A stretch of DNA of 37,662 nucleotides from a virus. Positions 4,257 through 37,662 of this stretch are shown here, one piece after another; position 1 is the stretch's first letter; each line of letters begins with the position of its first letter. The notes under the pieces are model-generated. The model saw only the letters and a program-made list of their open reading frames with translations, was not told the origin of the DNA and ran no database searches. Where the stretch lies: positions 1-37,662 of the IMG/VR virus record IMGVR_UViG_3300044643_001392; one strand, written 5' to 3'. The position numbers were made by a program, and so were the translations under genes.

Positions 4257-4925
4257 ATGGCATATACAAGAGGTACAAGCACCAACATTATTGTTGGAGC
4301 AGCTGCTTTGTTTACTTACGAAGCAGGAGTATTGACAGACGCAGGTCTTCCAGCTTATGAAGCTGAAGGATCTGTTGGAAACACAACAGGAACATATCGT
4401 GAAACCCTAGCTGACTCTGCAGCCTTCCGTAACGTTGGTTATACAATGAACGGTCTAGAGCTACAGTTCCAGCCAGATTTTGGCGAGGTACAGGTTGATC
4501 AGGTTCTTGACGTTGCAAAGCTATACAAGCAGGGTATGCAGGTTAACCTGAACACTGCTTTTGCTGAAGCAACACTAGAGAACTTGCTGTTCTCCTTGGC
4601 TGGTAGAGATGCAGATCTCACATCAAGCGCAGGAGCAACAGGAATTAAGGTTGGATCCCCAACCCTAAACCTATCAGCAGGTGACATCGGTGAGTGTCCA
4701 GTTGAGCGTGGCCTAGTTGCTGTTGGTCCAGGTACAGGTGACTGTGACCCAGACGAGCAGATTGAGCGTATTTACGTTGCATACCGTGCACTTTCTATTG
4801 AGAGTGTTACAGTTTCTGCAAAGCGTGATGAGCCAACTATGTACGAGGTTTCATTCCGTCTACTGCCAAACGATGCTGCATCCTACGGTAAGATCGTAGA
4901 CCGCACTATCCCAGCAGTATCGTAA
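4257..4925 (+). CDS. Major tail tube protein
   Basis: This 222-residue protein has the size and position of a siphovirus tube subunit and is rich in Ala, Gly, Thr and Val. It has the tube-like sequence FGEVQVDQVLDVAKLYKQG, followed by conserved-looking ATLENLLFSLAGRDADL and a C-terminal EPTMYEVSFRLLPNDA strand. Of ten arginine codons seven are CGT and one CGC, the same strong bias as in the capsid gene and unlike the AGA-rich genes around it. It has its own promoter upstream and terminator downstream, so it is an independent transcription unit for an abundant product. AAGAGGTG lies ahead of the ATG. Confidence 0.85.
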   Translation: MAYTRGTSTNIIVGAAALFTYEAGVLTDAGLPAYEAEGSVGNTTGTYRETLADSAAFRNVGYTMNGLELQFQPDFGEVQVDQVLDVAKLYKQGMQVNLNTAFAEATLENLLFSLAGRDADLTSSAGATGIKVGSPTLNLSAGDIGECPVERGLVAVGPGTGDCDPDEQIERIYVAYRALSIESVTVSAKRDEPTMYEVSFRLLPNDAASYGKIVDRTIPAVS

Positions 4926-22501: not shown

Positions 22502-23044
22502 ATGGCTAAAAGACACGGCCAAGTCGACATGGTAGAGTATAACTCTTTACCAGTTATTCCAGGAAACAAGAAGGTTTGGTTTTTAAACGGAGACCTAATA
22601 AGAGTTCATCACTTAAACAAGTCTAATGGAATCATGTCAGTTTACAATATTGTAAAAGATAGGATTGAGAGTTGTTTGATTTCAGATTTTAAAAAAAATA
22701 GGGAGAGGGCTTATACTGTTGGAGAAACAGCCTCACTAGTAAATCGTCATAAGAAGTATATGCCAAGCTTGATGAAGCGTGAAATTATTCCTCATCCTAC
22801 TGGATCCCAAAAAGGCGGGGGAACTGGATGGCAAGTAAGATCCTATTACGCAGAATCACAGGTAAAAGAAATTCGTGATATACTAGCTACCTACCACATG
22901 GGTAGACCAAGAAATGATAAGCTAATAACCAACGATATAACTCCTAGCCGTCAGGAATTGACAAGGCGTCTGGGAGATGGTATACTGACTTATACGAAAA
23001 CAGAAGATGGTAGATTTATTCCAATTTGGAATGAAAGCATATAA
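22502..23044 (+). CDS. MerR-like helix-turn-helix DNA-binding protein
   Basis: The 180-residue protein has a winged-helix section at about residues 74-130 (YTVGETASLVNRHKKYMPSL, then the wing GGGTGWQVRSYYAESQVKEI). In MerR-type proteins YTVGETA corresponds to the recognition helices, and the Arg-Tyr-Tyr segment marks the end of the wing. An N-terminal beta part (VWFLNGDLIRVHHLNKSNG) looks like a small separate domain. It lies at the boundary between tail and replication genes and is a candidate switch between early and late expression. No strong ribosome site is seen before the ATG, which follows the fibre stop codon by two bases. Confidence 0.65.
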   Translation: MAKRHGQVDMVEYNSLPVIPGNKKVWFLNGDLIRVHHLNKSNGIMSVYNIVKDRIESCLISDFKKNRERAYTVGETASLVNRHKKYMPSLMKREIIPHPTGSQKGGGTGWQVRSYYAESQVKEIRDILATYHMGRPRNDKLITNDITPSRQELTRRLGDGILTYTKTEDGRFIPIWNESI

Positions 23045-24802: not shown

Positions 24803-25129
24803 ATGGACAGTTTACACCATAAACCGATTAAGAGCTTCTTCCTAGATGGCATCATCTATGACGATTCAACAATTGCACGACTAAAAATAGAATACATAAA
24901 ACTATTACTAGTTGAAATGAAAACTTTGGGGTATGTGCCAAGGCTAGACCTTGACCCAGACTTCACAATAAGGTATAATAAAGAAGTACAAATATTTGAA
25001 TTTAAATTAACGACATATGGAATATACGTAGGAAAGAAAAAAACACAGTGGATAATAGGACTAGACGGAACAAGAGTAATCTATACACAAAAGAGCAAGT
25101 TGAAAGAGTTCTTGAGGGATCGGGTATAG
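24803..25129 (+). CDS. Unknown protein between helicase and primase
   Basis: The 108-residue protein is mixed alpha/beta (SFFLDGIIYDDSTIARLKIEYIKLLLVEMKTLGY, then a beta hairpin FEFKLTTYGIYVGKKKTQWIIG). It looks like a compact folded domain ending in a basic helix. Its last 82 nt overlap the start of the primase gene in another frame, and both frames read as sensible protein there. No function is recognised; placement suggests a replication accessory role. Confidence 0.6.
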   Translation: MDSLHHKPIKSFFLDGIIYDDSTIARLKIEYIKLLLVEMKTLGYVPRLDLDPDFTIRYNKEVQIFEFKLTTYGIYVGKKKTQWIIGLDGTRVIYTQKSKLKEFLRDRV

Positions 25130-25992
25130 ACGTTCAGTCTGAGGTTGATTCCGACTTTATAATCTTCTGCCCATTTCACAACAACTATCGTAGCCCAGCT
25201 GGAGAAGTAGACAAAAAGAGTGGTATCTTTTATTGCTTCTCTTGTCACAAAACATCAGATCTTGTGGAGTTTGTAATGTTTACATCTGCAAGAACATACT
25301 TTGAGTCAGTTCGTTTTATAAAAAGCAAAGAGCAGCAAACAGATCTTGAGCAAGAGATGACAAGGCAGCTACATACCAGGCAAGAGTATGTTCCCTACGA
25401 TGAGCTGCAAGTTAAAAAACTTCACCTTCAAGCTATGGACTCTCCAAGAGCTAGCACCTACTTTAATGGTAGAAAAATTAATAAAGAATCTATGGCAAAG
25501 TTTGGCCTAGGCTTTTCAGAAAATTTTGATATGGTCACTGTTCCAGTTCACTCCCCAGACGGAATGCTCTTGGGTTTTGTTGGCAGATCAATTGAGGGTA
25601 AAGAGTTTAAGAATACTCCAGGACTTCCCAAGAGCAAAACCCTGTTTAACATAAATCGTGTAAAAACTGCAGAGCAGGTTTATGTGGTAGAATCTTCTTT
25701 CGATGCAATTAGGCTAGATCAGGTTGGCCTTTCTGCAGTCGCAACGCTAGGGGCAAACGTCTCTGGTATGCAAATAGAACTTCTTCAGAAATATTTCAAT
25801 AACATTATTGTTATTGCAGATAATGATGAGGCAGGCGGTAATATGAAAAACAGGCTGCTAGAAAAGCTTGGCTCTCGTGTTTCCGTAATACAACTAGATA
25901 ATAAGTATAAAGACATTGGTGATATGTCGGACGAAGACATAAAGTTATTAGACTTTAAGTTTGACAACGCTATTGCCAATATGCTAAAATAA
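25048..25992 (+). CDS. dnaG: DnaG-type DNA primase (CHC2 zinc finger plus TOPRIM)
   Basis: The 314-residue protein makes RNA primers. The zinc site is C41-x2-H44 with C63-x2-C66 (FCPFHNNYRSP, then FYCFSCHKTSDLVEF), the CHC2 finger that reads template. The TOPRIM domain has E215 (VVESSFDAI) and D258/D260 (IADNDEAG), which bind the catalytic metals. The C-terminal helicase-binding domain of bacterial DnaG is absent, which is common in phage primases. The start is GTG 25048, since no other start codon lies between it and the zinc finger; AGGAAAG is upstream. It overlaps the preceding gene by 82 nt. Confidence 0.9.
   Translation: MDNRTRRNKSNLYTKEQVERVLEGSGIDVQSEVDSDFIIFCPFHNNYRSPAGEVDKKSGIFYCFSCHKTSDLVEFVMFTSARTYFESVRFIKSKEQQTDLEQEMTRQLHTRQEYVPYDELQVKKLHLQAMDSPRASTYFNGRKINKESMAKFGLGFSENFDMVTVPVHSPDGMLLGFVGRSIEGKEFKNTPGLPKSKTLFNINRVKTAEQVYVVESSFDAIRLDQVGLSAVATLGANVSGMQIELLQKYFNNIIVIADNDEAGGNMKNRLLEKLGSRVSVIQLDNKYKDIGDMSDEDIKLLDFKFDNAIANMLK
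25961..25990 (+). promoter_or_regulatory. Strong promoter for the SSB-polymerase operon
   Basis: TTGACA (25961-25966), 18 nt spacer, then TAAAAT (25985-25990) with an upstream TG (25982-25983). The -35 is a perfect consensus. It sits at the end of the primase gene and gives a leader of about 25 nt with AGGAG before the SSB start. Among the best sigma70-type matches in the window. Confidence 0.75.
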
Positions 25993-26021: not shown

Positions 26022-26678
26022 ATGAGCGTAACAAAGGGATTAAAAGATATCAACGCCCTGCTTGACAGACCAAAATACGAAGGAACTGGAAGCAAAGTTC
26101 GCTGGCTAAAGCTAGCTGACGGACAAGCTGTAAAGATCCGCTTTATTGAAGAGCTAGACGAAGACTCGTCAAACTATGACGCAAAAAGAGGTCTGGCAAT
26201 TGTAGTAAAAGAACACACAAATCCAAAGGACTACAAGCGTAAGGCTGTAGACACAATGGAAACAGAAGGCCGTGACTGGGCAGAAGAGATGCACCGTAAA
26301 GATCCAAAGGCTGGCTGGAAAGCACGTCTTCGTTTTTACTGCAACGTTCTTGTCGATGACGGAATTGAAGACCCATATGTCGCAATCTGGTCTATGGGTA
26401 TTAGCAAGCAGTCTGCTTTCAACACAATTCGTGAGTATGCTCTAGAAACTGGAAGCATTTCGAACCTAAGCTGGAAGCTAAAGCGCAGTGGTCAAGGAAC
26501 AGAAACAACCTACACGTTGTTCCCGTCTGGACCAGACACAGAGCCGTATAGTTGGGGTGGCGTTGAGGCATTCCCACTAGAGCTAGCTCTTAGAAATATT
26601 CCATATTCGGAGCAGGAAGCTTTCTATCTAGGCTTTGACACTCCATCATTAACATCAGCTACCAATATTGACTGGTAG
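26022..26678 (+). CDS. Single-stranded DNA-binding protein (phage type)
   Basis: The 218-residue protein protects ssDNA at the fork and during recombination. The N-terminal region (LDRPKYEGTGSKVRWLKLADGQAVKIRFIEEL) fits the opening strands of an OB fold. A basic, possibly DNA-binding part (HTNPKDYKRKAVDTME, RKDPKAGWKARLRFYCNVLVDDG) follows. The C-terminus ends with an acidic/aromatic tip (TSATNIDW), reminiscent of the protein-binding tip of SSBs. It follows a strong promoter and a good ribosome site (AGGAG). Phage-type SSBs diverge greatly, so this call rests on character and operon context. Confidence 0.7.
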   Translation: MSVTKGLKDINALLDRPKYEGTGSKVRWLKLADGQAVKIRFIEELDEDSSNYDAKRGLAIVVKEHTNPKDYKRKAVDTMETEGRDWAEEMHRKDPKAGWKARLRFYCNVLVDDGIEDPYVAIWSMGISKQSAFNTIREYALETGSISNLSWKLKRSGQGTETTYTLFPSGPDTEPYSWGGVEAFPLELALRNIPYSEQEAFYLGFDTPSLTSATNIDW

Positions 26679-35027: not shown

Positions 35028-35550
35028 AGATAACCTAATTGAACACCTAGACAAGGTTAATAAGGTCGTAGAAGAATACCTAAAGGGTAGCGAAGCAACG
35101 CAAATATCCAAAGAGCTTGACATACCAAGACAAAAGGTTGTTAGCTATATAAACGAGTGGAAGCAGATGGCTTCTGATAACGCAGCTATTCGTGCAAGAG
35201 CCAAAGAGGCTTTGGTTGGCGCAGACACACACTACAACAAACTAATTAATAAAGCTTATGAAGTTATTGATGATGCAACTACAACTGCAAACCTAAGTGC
35301 AAAAACTGCTGCTATTAAACTAGTTCTTGACATTGAGGCAAGAAGAATTGACATGCTTCAAAAAGCTGGGTTACTTGAAAACAAAGAGTTGGCAGAAGAA
35401 ATGCTTGAGATTGAAAGAAAGCAAGATGTTCTTGTGAACATTCTTAAAGACATTGCTTCGGAATACCCACAAATACGAGACGAGATTATGCGCAGGCTAT
35501 CTGCTGTTTCAAAAAACAAAGAGGTAATTACAATTGTCAGCGATGTTTGA
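35017..35550 (+). CDS. Probable small terminase subunit
   Basis: The 177-residue protein has an N-terminal HTH (YLKGSEATQISKELDIPRQKV, then VSYINEWKQM), as in small terminases that recognise the packaging site, and a long helical C-terminal part (KTAAIKLVLDIEARRIDMLQKAG, then LVNILKDIASEYPQIRDEIMRRL) for oligomerisation. It is directly followed, with overlap, by the large terminase, which strongly supports the role. AAAGGGGT precedes ATG. Confidence 0.75.
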   Translation: MSTEDNLIEHLDKVNKVVEEYLKGSEATQISKELDIPRQKVVSYINEWKQMASDNAAIRARAKEALVGADTHYNKLINKAYEVIDDATTTANLSAKTAAIKLVLDIEARRIDMLQKAGLLENKELAEEMLEIERKQDVLVNILKDIASEYPQIRDEIMRRLSAVSKNKEVITIVSDV

Positions 35551-37318
35551 TGACTTCTTAGAAGTTTTAAAAGACAGCAACTTTGACGAGACGCCAGTTG
35601 ATGCAAAAACATTTGTAGAAGGCGAAGACTATCTTGCTCAACCACCACTGTCAGATGTTCAATACGATATTGTCGAAGCTATGAGTCAAATTTATAAACT
35701 AGAAGATTTAATTAATTTAATGGGACAGGAAGAGGGTACAAAATATTACAAAAAGTATACAAAAAATGAGGTTATTCTTCAGCTTGGTAAAGGATCTGGC
35801 AAGGATTTTACGTCTACTGTTGCGTGTTCTTACATCGTATACAAGCTCCTTTGTCTTAAGGACCCAGCGAGATACTTTGGAAAGCCAGCTGGCGATGCGA
35901 TTGATATCATTAACGTGGCGATTAACGCTCAGCAAGCTAAGAATGTTTTCTTTAAGGGTTTCAAAAATAAAATAGAGAGATCTCCTTGGTTTGCTGGAAA
36001 GTTTTACGCAAAGGCTGAGTCAATTGAATTTGATAAAGCTATCACGGTTTACTCTGGACATTCAGAGCGTGAATCTCATGAGGGTCTTAACCTTATCTTG
36101 GCAGTCCTAGATGAGATATCTGGATTTGCACAAGAAATTGGTGGCGGTAATGATCAAGGCAAAACCGCCGATAACATTTATAAAGCGTTCCGTGCATCTG
36201 TAGATTCTCGATTCCCAGATCTTGGAAAAGTAGCGTTGCTATCATTCCCACGTTTTCCAGGGGACTTTATTTCTCAAAGATACGACTCAGTGATTGCAGA
36301 AAAAGAAAGCATTGCCAAAACTCATACCTTTATAATGAACCCAGACTTGCCAGAAAATGCTGAGGGCAACTCTCTAAAAATTGATTGGGATGAGGACATT
36401 ATTATCTCATACAAATATCCAGGGGTGTTTGCACTAAAGAGACCAACTTGGGTTGTCAATCCAACCAGAACTATTGACGACTTTAAATTAGCCTTCTACA
36501 CAGACATTGGCGATGCAATGCAGAGATTTGCATGTGTTCCCACCTTCGCATCTGACGCATTTTTTAAACAGCGTGAGAAGGTTAGAGCCTGCATGACAAT
36601 TAGAAATCCAATTGATTCCTCAAAAAGATTTGACGAAGCATTCAAACCAGATCCAGAGAAAAAATATTTTGTTCATGCCGACCTTGCACAAAAGCATGAC
36701 AAGTGTGCGGTAGCAATTGCTCACGTAGAAAAATGGGTATCTGTTCAAGTCATGAAAGATTATGAGCAGGTTGTTCCAATGGTTATTGTAGATGCTGTTG
36801 TCTACTGGGAACCAAGAGTTGAAGGCCCCGTAAACCTTTCTGAAGTAAAGCAATGGATTCAAAACTTACGTAGACAGGGATTCGATCTAGGAATGGTTAG
36901 CTTTGACCGTTGGCAATCTTTTGATATACAGAACGAGCTAAAGTCCGTTGGTATTAAAACTGAAACGGTATCTGTAGCAAAGAAACATTACGAAGATATG
37001 GCAATGCTTATGTACGAAGAAAGACTAGCCATGCCAGCAATTGAGCTACTTTTTGAGGAGCTAACAGAATTAAAGATTATGAAAAACAATAGGGTAGACC
37101 ACCCAAGGAAAAGCTCCAAGGACTTAGCTGACGCTGTTTGTGGCGCAATCTTTGGTGCAATATCGCATACGCCAAGGGATCAAAATCTTGAAGTAGATAT
37201 CCACACCTTCAGAGATAGGCCCAAGACTCAGCTTGACACTGGTAAGGACAATGTGATACAATATAAGCCTATCCCGAAAGACATCAAAGACTATCTGGAT
37301 AGTTTCGAAATAATCTAA
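35534..37318 (+). CDS. terL: Large terminase subunit
   Basis: The 594-residue packaging motor and nuclease has the ATPase P loop GKGSGKD at 85-91 and Walker B AVLDE with D193/E194. The nuclease starts at HADLAQ with D383 and continues MVSFDRWQS, then DHPRKSSKDLADAVCGAIF, whose Asp residues complete the RNase H-type site. TTG 35534 is taken as the start because GAGGT (35521-35525) sits eight bases ahead. ATG 35543, giving 591 residues and an eight-base overlap, is an alternative. Its 3' end contains a near-consensus promoter for the following gene. Confidence 0.95.
   Translation: MSAMFDDFLEVLKDSNFDETPVDAKTFVEGEDYLAQPPLSDVQYDIVEAMSQIYKLEDLINLMGQEEGTKYYKKYTKNEVILQLGKGSGKDFTSTVACSYIVYKLLCLKDPARYFGKPAGDAIDIINVAINAQQAKNVFFKGFKNKIERSPWFAGKFYAKAESIEFDKAITVYSGHSERESHEGLNLILAVLDEISGFAQEIGGGNDQGKTADNIYKAFRASVDSRFPDLGKVALLSFPRFPGDFISQRYDSVIAEKESIAKTHTFIMNPDLPENAEGNSLKIDWDEDIIISYKYPGVFALKRPTWVVNPTRTIDDFKLAFYTDIGDAMQRFACVPTFASDAFFKQREKVRACMTIRNPIDSSKRFDEAFKPDPEKKYFVHADLAQKHDKCAVAIAHVEKWVSVQVMKDYEQVVPMVIVDAVVYWEPRVEGPVNLSEVKQWIQNLRRQGFDLGMVSFDRWQSFDIQNELKSVGIKTETVSVAKKHYEDMAMLMYEERLAMPAIELLFEELTELKIMKNNRVDHPRKSSKDLADAVCGAIFGAISHTPRDQNLEVDIHTFRDRPKTQLDTGKDNVIQYKPIPKDIKDYLDSFEII
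37233..37262 (+). promoter_or_regulatory. Near-consensus promoter inside terL, aimed at secreted-protein gene
   Basis: TTGACA (37233-37238), 18-nt spacer, TACAAT (37257-37262) preceded by TG (37254-37255). It has the same layout as the promoter at 25961. Transcription would start near 37269, about 70 nt ahead of the signal-peptide gene, with 50 nt of terminase coding sequence in the leader. Confidence 0.7.
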
Positions 37319-37337
37319 AATAAGGAGATCCAAAAAT

Positions 37338-37662
37338 ATGACTTCGTTCAAGAAGCCACTAATTGCTATTGCTTCTGCAGTAGCCCTAGTAGGAACTATG
37401 CTAATTGCTGGTCCTGCCATTGCATCATCTGCTACACTAACGGTTGCTGGATCGTCTCCAGCCTCTGCAGGAACCTCATCTGCAAGTGCAATTGCACTCC
37501 CCGTCCCATCCGACAATGACGTAAGCTCTGCTGACGCACTTCGCATTTCCCTGTCTGGCGTAACTGCTGGCAGCAATGTTGTTGTGACTGCTACCAATGC
37601 AAAGATTGTCACAGCTGTTACTTCTGGTTCTACCACCGTAAAGGTCGACTCTGGAGTGTCTA
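37338..37662 (+). CDS. Secreted Ser/Thr/Ala-rich protein, 3'-truncated by window edge
   Basis: The first 108 residues are present. Residues 1-29 are a classical Sec signal peptide: basic MTSFKK, hydrophobic LIAIASAVALVGTMLIAG, then the AxA site A27-I28-A29. The mature part starts SSATLTVAGSS and is Ser/Thr/Ala/Val-rich beta sequence (LRISLSGVTAGSNVVVTATN), like actinobacterial surface or adhesin-type proteins. TAAGGAGAT lies ahead of ATG. Codons are richer in C than nearby genes (CTC, CCC, GTC, TCC, ACC), as in the capsid gene or a host gene. It may be a host-derived surface protein, a superinfection-blocking factor, or a virion protein routed through the membrane. The remaining sequence is outside the window. 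Confidence 0.8.
   Translation, partial: MTSFKKPLIAIASAVALVGTMLIAGPAIASSATLTVAGSSPASAGTSSASAIALPVPSDNDVSSADALRISLSGVTAGSNVVVTATNAKIVTAVTSGSTTVKVDSGVS

Follow-up and report, generated by a model that had tools for sequence, protein, structure and literature searches.

A putative exported-protein cassette behind the terminase gene of a viral lineage, with a promoter overprinted on the 3' end of terL

Introduction

In the virus described here, the gene for the large terminase subunit (terL) is followed directly by a gene for a protein with a predicted Sec-type signal peptide, and this gene, together with a promoter written into the 3' end of terL and a terminator-like hairpin past its own stop codon, almost certainly constitutes an autonomous exported-protein cassette, as judged from comparative sequence evidence. 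A signal-peptide protein fills the same slot in all 71 readable loci of a sample chosen through terL, and in 32 of them it is of other sequence types, which is new relative to the sequence-only reading of this DNA. No description of this slot protein was found in the literature as far as titles and abstract openings go, and the main texts of PMC6802176, PMC9878933, and PMC12143481 contain no mention of secreted, signal-peptide, Ig-like, S-layer, or superinfection. The protein might act as an exported, wall-bound coat of infected cells, including a role in superinfection exclusion; this is our leading idea, drawn from sequence and a structural model, and it is put forward tentatively, at somewhat less than an even chance.

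Gene Order, Lineage, and Host

The window, that is, the whole 37,662-nucleotide stretch of viral DNA that was analysed, opens within the major capsid gene (PF05065, 1.8e-7) and proceeds from structural genes through replication genes to terL and the first 108 codons of the secreted-protein gene. The features at this end of the window are as follows.

35534..37318, + strand: terL, large terminase subunit, 594 aa, with a TTG start as listed (phrog_17415, 1.6e-12; phrog_2699, 5.4e-4)
37233..37238, + strand: -35 hexamer TTGACA, inside terL (sequence; codon invariance of terL ends)
37254..37262, + strand: extended -10 element TGA-TACAAT, inside terL, with TACAAT at 37257-37262 and a spacer of 18 nt (sequence; codon invariance)
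37316-37318, + strand: terL stop codon
37322..37327, + strand: putative ribosome-binding site AAGGAG (sequence; A/G-rich runs stand alike before the starts of most relatives)
37338..37661, + strand: secreted-protein gene up to codon 108, where the window ends (sequence)
37338..37424, + strand: predicted Sec-type signal peptide, 29 codons (KK in the n-region, long hydrophobic core, A-x-A end)
37425..37661, + strand: start of the mature protein, predicted first Ig-like domain, incomplete in the window (AlphaFold model of the mature L002 protein)

The sequence-only reading had reported a signal-peptide protein after terL, and this is borne out: the open reading frame starts 19 nt past the terL stop, and its N-terminus, MTSFKKPLIAIASAVALVGTMLIAGPAIAS, has the classical n/h/c layout of Sec signal peptides with an A-x-A end. 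Cleavage likely follows A-I-A, which we take by rule to be the site, and PANA stands at the corresponding place in 14 of 17 aligned relatives. The full gene, which that reading had proposed to obtain, was found at L002:10001-10879, where it encodes 292 aa, the first 108 of which are identical to the window copy.

It had also been held that the slot behind terL is the usual place of portal or head genes, and this did not survive comparison. In the relative G004, the portal gene (phrog_12, 7e-55) lies beside those for the head protease and capsid at about 44-48 kb, about 38 kb away from terL at 84-85.7 kb. The 10-14 kb shown past terL in three annotated relatives, the Streptomyces phages Yaboi, Gilson, and Coruscant, likewise contain no portal gene; HNH, hypothetical, and tRNA genes are among those found there. 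The earlier surprise at the gene position therefore stemmed from a general rule on portal genes after terL that does not hold in this lineage. Among the matches listed, the window TerL is 54-55.5% identical to Streptomyces phage TerL across the whole query. Yaboi, Gilson, and Coruscant, members of the Stanwilliamsviridae, are thus similar to the present phage in their TerL (54-55% identical, TerL being the only protein compared) and in having terL close the replication block, but they carry other genes after terL, and the secreted protein is without a match in the phage collection (three slot members against 50,697 annotated phage records).

The actinobacterial regulator WhiB was found in 12 of 17 contigs and, among 14 control genomes, only in Corynebacterium glutamicum, which points to actinobacterial hosts; the available parts of papers on freshwater phages use WhiB as a host pointer in the same way (PMC6802176, PMC10202952, PMC9878933). 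The Phage_integrase and Resolvase families gave no match in the 17 contigs, some of which are incomplete, and the phages are probably lytic. Past the cassette terminator, L002:11026-13322 contains open reading frames that by eye look like a ribonucleotide reductase (681 aa) and a thioredoxin (83 aa), and slightly further downstream, at L002:13511-14788, there is a 426-aa open reading frame with long PEP/PSP repeats and no PHROG match.

Promoter, Terminator, and Likely Timing

The TTGACA-N18-TGA-TACAAT promoter had been proposed from the letters of one phage, and the comparison of relatives upholds it through the sequence itself, through scores against controls, and through codon invariance in terL; on these comparative grounds the predicted promoter in the 3' end of terL is real. 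The scoring set consisted of 79 distinct 130-nt upstream stretches, taken from those loci, 107 out of 135, in which terL adjoins the gene, and, as these loci were found through the protein, the counts on the 79 stretches and on the 68 terL ends below describe protein-carrying phages. A score of at least 12 of 13 is reached in 65 of the 79 stretches (66 with L034, whose site is cut by the stretch), in contrast to 0 of 1859 control windows within terL bodies, where the top score of 11 occurs in four windows. Synonymous shuffles of the window's own terL reached a score of 12 in 9 of 5000 cases.

The codon test used terL 3' ends of 600 nt, 102 of which were available and 68 of which were left after dropping those at least 95% alike. 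Of the 174 columns that have a common residue, only five are restricted to one codon, and each of these lies over the -35 or the extended -10 element. Where the common residue is kept, the -35 codons are CTT in 37 of 37 and GAC in 64 of 64 ends, and those of the extended -10 element are GTG (64/64), CAA (40/40), TAT (59/59), and ATA (62/63), whereas most of the conserved residues nearby are encoded by two to four codons each. In L052 and L055, terL has lost its internal site (no score above 9 in the last 130 nt) and a promoter scoring 12 is present just past the stop, a relocation that fits selection on the promoter rather than on TerL residues and makes these two loci a natural control for overprinting. 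L108 has a promoter site at the terL stop in addition to a retained 11-point site inside terL.

The terL-chosen sample, made up of the best 80 matches to one TerL, of which a single one has a terL stretch identical to that of a locus found earlier, shows that the strong promoter is not universal. Scores of at least 12 occur in 13 of its 71 readable loci and of at least 11 in 29, compared with 0 and 3, respectively, of 1360 controls. The 39 loci with the two-Ig family account for 10 and 26 of these; the 32 loci with other proteins account for three at either threshold, their usual -35 is TTGCAG, and 23 of them score only 9, a value common among controls.

At the other end of the cassette, L002 has GGAAAGGGGGGCTAAAATCCCCCCTTTTC followed by TATTTTT, starting 13 nt past the gene stop. 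A terminator-like hairpin follows the gene in 127 of 141 distinct downstream stretches and is absent in 14, as compared with 11 of 404 control windows, and among the rows listed it lies mostly 12-20 nt past the stop. The conserved promoter in terL and the terminator past the stop together indicate a monocistronic unit, so that the gene could be expressed apart from its neighbours, as had been predicted from the promoter.

Other promoter-like sites in the window matching at 11 of 12 positions are at 22958, 24951, and 25961. The last (25961-25990) reads TTGACA-N18-TAAAAT with TG before the -10 and lies in the 3' end of the open reading frame 25048-25992, just before the single-strand-binding-protein gene at 26022-26678; G004 has a matching site before its single-strand-binding-protein gene plus two more in like positions. 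The sites at 22958-22986 and 24951-24979 lie inside open reading frames of the replication region and have counterparts in G004 at 71737 and 73740-73746, by position only. Overprinting of promoters may be habitual in these phages. On the + strand of G002, 16 strict sites (score of at least 11) were counted where 2.4 are expected, and only three of them fall within the first 20 kb, which hold the structural block; when the right half of the window was scanned more loosely, there was no excess over chance (43 found, 41.3 expected). Because the strict sites lie largely outside the structural block, their distribution suggests that the cassette is transcribed with replication and accessory genes rather than with late genes.

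The C-rich codon use reported for the gene holds for its two-fold NNY codons only, in which the fraction of C is 0.74 and ranks second among the 65 genes of G002 (0.40 overall); in its four-fold boxes T prevails (C/(C+T) 0.19), and T makes up 0.41 of third positions. In two-fold NNY codons the gene thus resembles the most biased genes of the window's phage, the capsid gene having 0.73 C. In G004, the bias of the slot gene is moderate (rank 12 of 111), and family-wide the median NNY C is 0.42 compared with 0.36 for terL, being above terL in 112 of 156 pairs. Codon bias was considered as a proof of high expression and rejected as such, as it is clear in the window's phage and weak family-wide and thus gives minor support only. 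A tail-region protein at 4257-4922 of the window, which matches phrog_2175 (protein with Ig domain) and shows a weak match to a major tail protein, has a codon bias near that of the capsid gene and is perhaps the tail tube.

Structure of the Predicted Protein

Structure prediction, which the sequence-only reading had named as a check, gave two Ig-like domains. The AlphaFold model of the mature L002 protein (m380675a04c4f, 29 sequences, mean pLDDT 89.3) shows two beta-sandwich domains, which are followed by a helix (225-253) and then a short tail, and on sequence and model together the 292-aa protein is predicted to comprise a signal peptide, two Ig-like domains, a C-terminal helix, and a basic tail. 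The best match among solved structures is FdeC (Z 11.6, rmsd 4.1, 176 residues aligned), and further matches are invasin (Z 11.2, rmsd 7.3), one domain of InvE (Z 10.7), and domains of the S-layer protein SbsC (Z 9.6-10). However, bacterial galactosidases have Ig-like domains that reach almost the same scores (Z 10.0-10.4), and the fold is therefore to be called "Ig-like" and not "adhesin."

The Pfam family Big_1 (PF02369) is matched in 5 of 17 members (best 1.8e-5, E up to 0.1), not including L002, and in 4 of 10 slot proteins of other type, all under the 34.9-bit cut-off. Neither Pfam nor PHROG gave a family for the window fragment, nor did Pfam give one for the complete L002 protein. When solved structures were searched by sequence, two matches were obtained, with E 0.23 and 0.33, each of them to a coiled-coil protein. 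The likeness of the mature part to host surface proteins, as claimed earlier, stands with respect to the fold shared with FdeC, invasin, and SbsC but not with respect to homology: two weak pattern scans of bacterial genomes, one for the whole protein and one for the mature part, each with two short patterns and the first pair both from the signal peptide, gave no confirmed homologue, and the likeness comes from the fold.

Since Ig-like domains are common in phage structural proteins, the protein could also be a virion component or a decoration that ends on particles, and several of its BFVD matches are named tail or structural proteins. The best PHROG for L002 is phrog_10610 at 0.058, with no function named, and the search with 17 members gave few weak matches, with no named function and no structural name. 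This, together with an N-terminus that by rule resembles a signal peptide in every one of the 172 slot proteins tested and a separate transcription unit far from the structural block, makes a virion role improbable in our view. We likewise give little credence to a host-envelope factor for lysis, nutrient capture, or wall remodelling. Such a factor would suit an exported protein of wall type with peptidase- and amidase-like open reading frames, named by reading only, several kb downstream; however, the cassette terminator separates the gene from these, the architecture is Ig-like, and neither the 17 family members nor the 10 other slot proteins searched matched an enzyme family.

The last 14 residues have a net charge of at least +3 in 157 of 158 complete slot proteins of both kinds, and this charge suggests binding of the tail to the cell wall. 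An LPXTG-like motif and a long second hydrophobic stretch, both looked for as signs of a sortase anchor, occur in none of the 158. No S-layer anchor family is among the Pfam matches of 17 members, although a family search misses other anchor types. Cysteine is absent from the L002 protein, and the mature part is Cys-free in 149 of the 158. With neither sortase nor membrane anchor in 158 sequences, no lipid cysteine in most mature parts, and a C-terminal helix that in the model could make oligomers, the protein might instead be released as a decoy to which receptor-binding proteins of rival phages, or phage-binding debris, would attach. The nearly universal basic tail rather suggests retention at the wall, and a free decoy would be costly through dilution in lake water, so that we consider a released decoy quite unlikely and prefer the wall-bound coat.

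A model of the slot protein of other type from L179 (mean pLDDT 63.8, and for that reason used for outline only) has beta domains followed by a C-terminal helix. In L194:4450-6138 and L201:3153-4838, a Cys-containing CVKG..CPxGYKKK tail replaces the NxLAxKWNK tail; it is possibly a different surface-attachment motif and may be akin to host secreted proteins.

Distribution and Exchange of Versions

In this lineage, the slot after terL is fixed, and its content varies. In the terL-chosen sample, the 71 readable loci (of 80) comprise 39 with the two-Ig family and 32 with other types; two of the nine unreadable loci show the start of a signal-peptide protein and seven end too soon. The 32 other-type proteins all begin with MNS[FL]K[KR] and have a signal-peptide-like N-terminus; 30 are 532-587 aa long, that of L224 has 464 aa, and that of L183 is cut by the contig end. 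Pooled scans gave 175 terL loci with more than 400 nt past the stop, of which 172 fit the start rule and three (L028-L030) begin with MNSFKNPLIAIASAVAL, this set being biased because part of it was found through the protein. Among loci found through the protein, terL adjoins the gene in 58 of 58 and then in 48 of 76 new loci. Relatives of the protein are encoded in at least 541 stretches of one viral collection, with one gene copy per contig (24/24), the second rows of six contigs being pieces of the same gene.

A second lineage carries the gene elsewhere. Among 12 contigs with the gene away from terL, 11 have a terL at 53-58% identity; in nine contigs in which both could be placed without crossing a contig end, the gene lies 6-19 kb downstream of terL, and a different small gene directly follows terL in the six loci readable there.

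Whole versions appear to be exchanged between close relatives. L171 (587 aa) and L174 (351 aa) are 0.91 alike in the last 900 nt of terL and 0.84 in the downstream DNA, but only 0.54 in the 300 nt past the signal peptide (gapped, probably near background), with the last 66 nt again 0.91 alike. In all, seven such pairs were read, and the downstream DNA, measured in five, is alike in three (0.84, 0.88, 0.90) and unlike in two (0.52, 0.54); in the six pairs other than L171/L174, the last 66 nt are 0.55 to 0.89 alike. The presence of unrelated versions behind near-identical terL genes indicates cassette exchange. The mature part also changes faster than terL, mean identity being 0.54 versus 0.82 in the 0.80-0.85 terL bin (755 pairs). 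Such rapid change and exchange would also be compatible with a role in anti-grazing, as a decoy, or in receptor binding.

The first of these would have the exported protein alter the surface of infected cells, by coating or aggregation, such that protists take fewer of them before lysis. The same anatomy that suggests exclusion would serve here, with folds of adhesin and S-layer type, and the available part of PMC7669872 ties the resistance of planktonic Actinobacteria to grazing to small size and the S-layer. Grazing by itself, however, leaves the exchange of versions between near-identical phages unexplained, and we regard an anti-grazing coat as unlikely compared with a coat directed at rival phages.

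Comparison with Known Systems

The cassette is similar in outline to Ltp of Streptococcus phage TP-J34, which, according to the available part of PMC3952083, is specified by a small separate gene of the phage, carries a signal sequence for its export, and is displayed on the surface of the host cell; export in the present case is predicted. There are also differences. In the same source, Ltp comes from temperate phages in which it lies beside the integrase gene, unlike the 17 contigs here, which lack integrase and resolvase matches, and its mature part starts with a lipoprotein cysteine (PMC3952083). The L002 signal peptide ends in A-x-A, and the lipid-attachment cysteine shared by Ltp and Llp was not found after it, in keeping with the Cys-free mature parts described above. 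Llp of phage T5 is a lipoprotein that is placed on the surface and stops re-infection by acting on the receptor. The likeness to Llp is one of working idea only, that of a surface-placed phage protein.

The Big_1 adhesins, including FdeC, invasin, InvD, and intimin, share the tandem Ig-like sandwiches, and FdeC and invasin are the best solved matches. These adhesins are anchored by outer-membrane barrels in Gram-negative cells, whereas the slot protein has two domains only, followed by the C-terminal helix and basic tail. S-layer proteins (SbsC, SbsB, Sap, EA1) are likewise exported and built of Ig-like domains, but the slot protein is much shorter, and S-layer anchor families are lacking from its Pfam matches.

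Possible Role and Concluding Remarks

The preferred reading, a wall-bound coat, can be put as a sequence of conditional steps. The main RNA polymerase of the host would read the cassette promoter before or apart from the late genes, as it would the similar promoter of the single-strand-binding-protein gene, and Sec would export the slot protein. The C-terminal helix and the strongly basic tail would hold it on the anionic cell wall with no lipid, sortase, or membrane anchor, leaving the Ig-like domains to face outward. The protein would then coat the infected cell and hide or mimic the receptor used by rival phages, resulting in superinfection exclusion, and shifts in rivals or hosts would account for the swapping of whole versions among near-identical phages.

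Blocking of superinfection, one of the roles suggested earlier, is possible and is the one that we prefer; adhesion of debris, suggested alongside it, found no support. One feature fits it less well: among 29 family members, mean pairwise identity is 0.62 for domain 1, 0.51 for domain 2, 0.53 for the helix, and 0.59 for the tail, so that the outer domain changes less than the inner one, in poor agreement with a simple picture of a tip meeting the rival. A broader statement, in which freshwater actinophages exchange exported coats in a slot reserved for them, between an overprinted promoter and a terminator, and infected cells thereby wear a phage-specific coat against rivals or grazers, is likewise conceivable, and we hold it with slightly more doubt.

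Overall, the cassette illustrates clearly how a promoter superimposed on a conserved gene can be recognised from its invariant codons, and other phages can be screened for the same signal. If the proposed role is true, it would be routine for phages of common lake bacteria to remodel the surface of the cells that they infect, and the pressure of rival phages in nature would be recorded in the exchange of versions. If the coat reading is true, this exchange would be a viral counterpart of bacterial antigenic variation.
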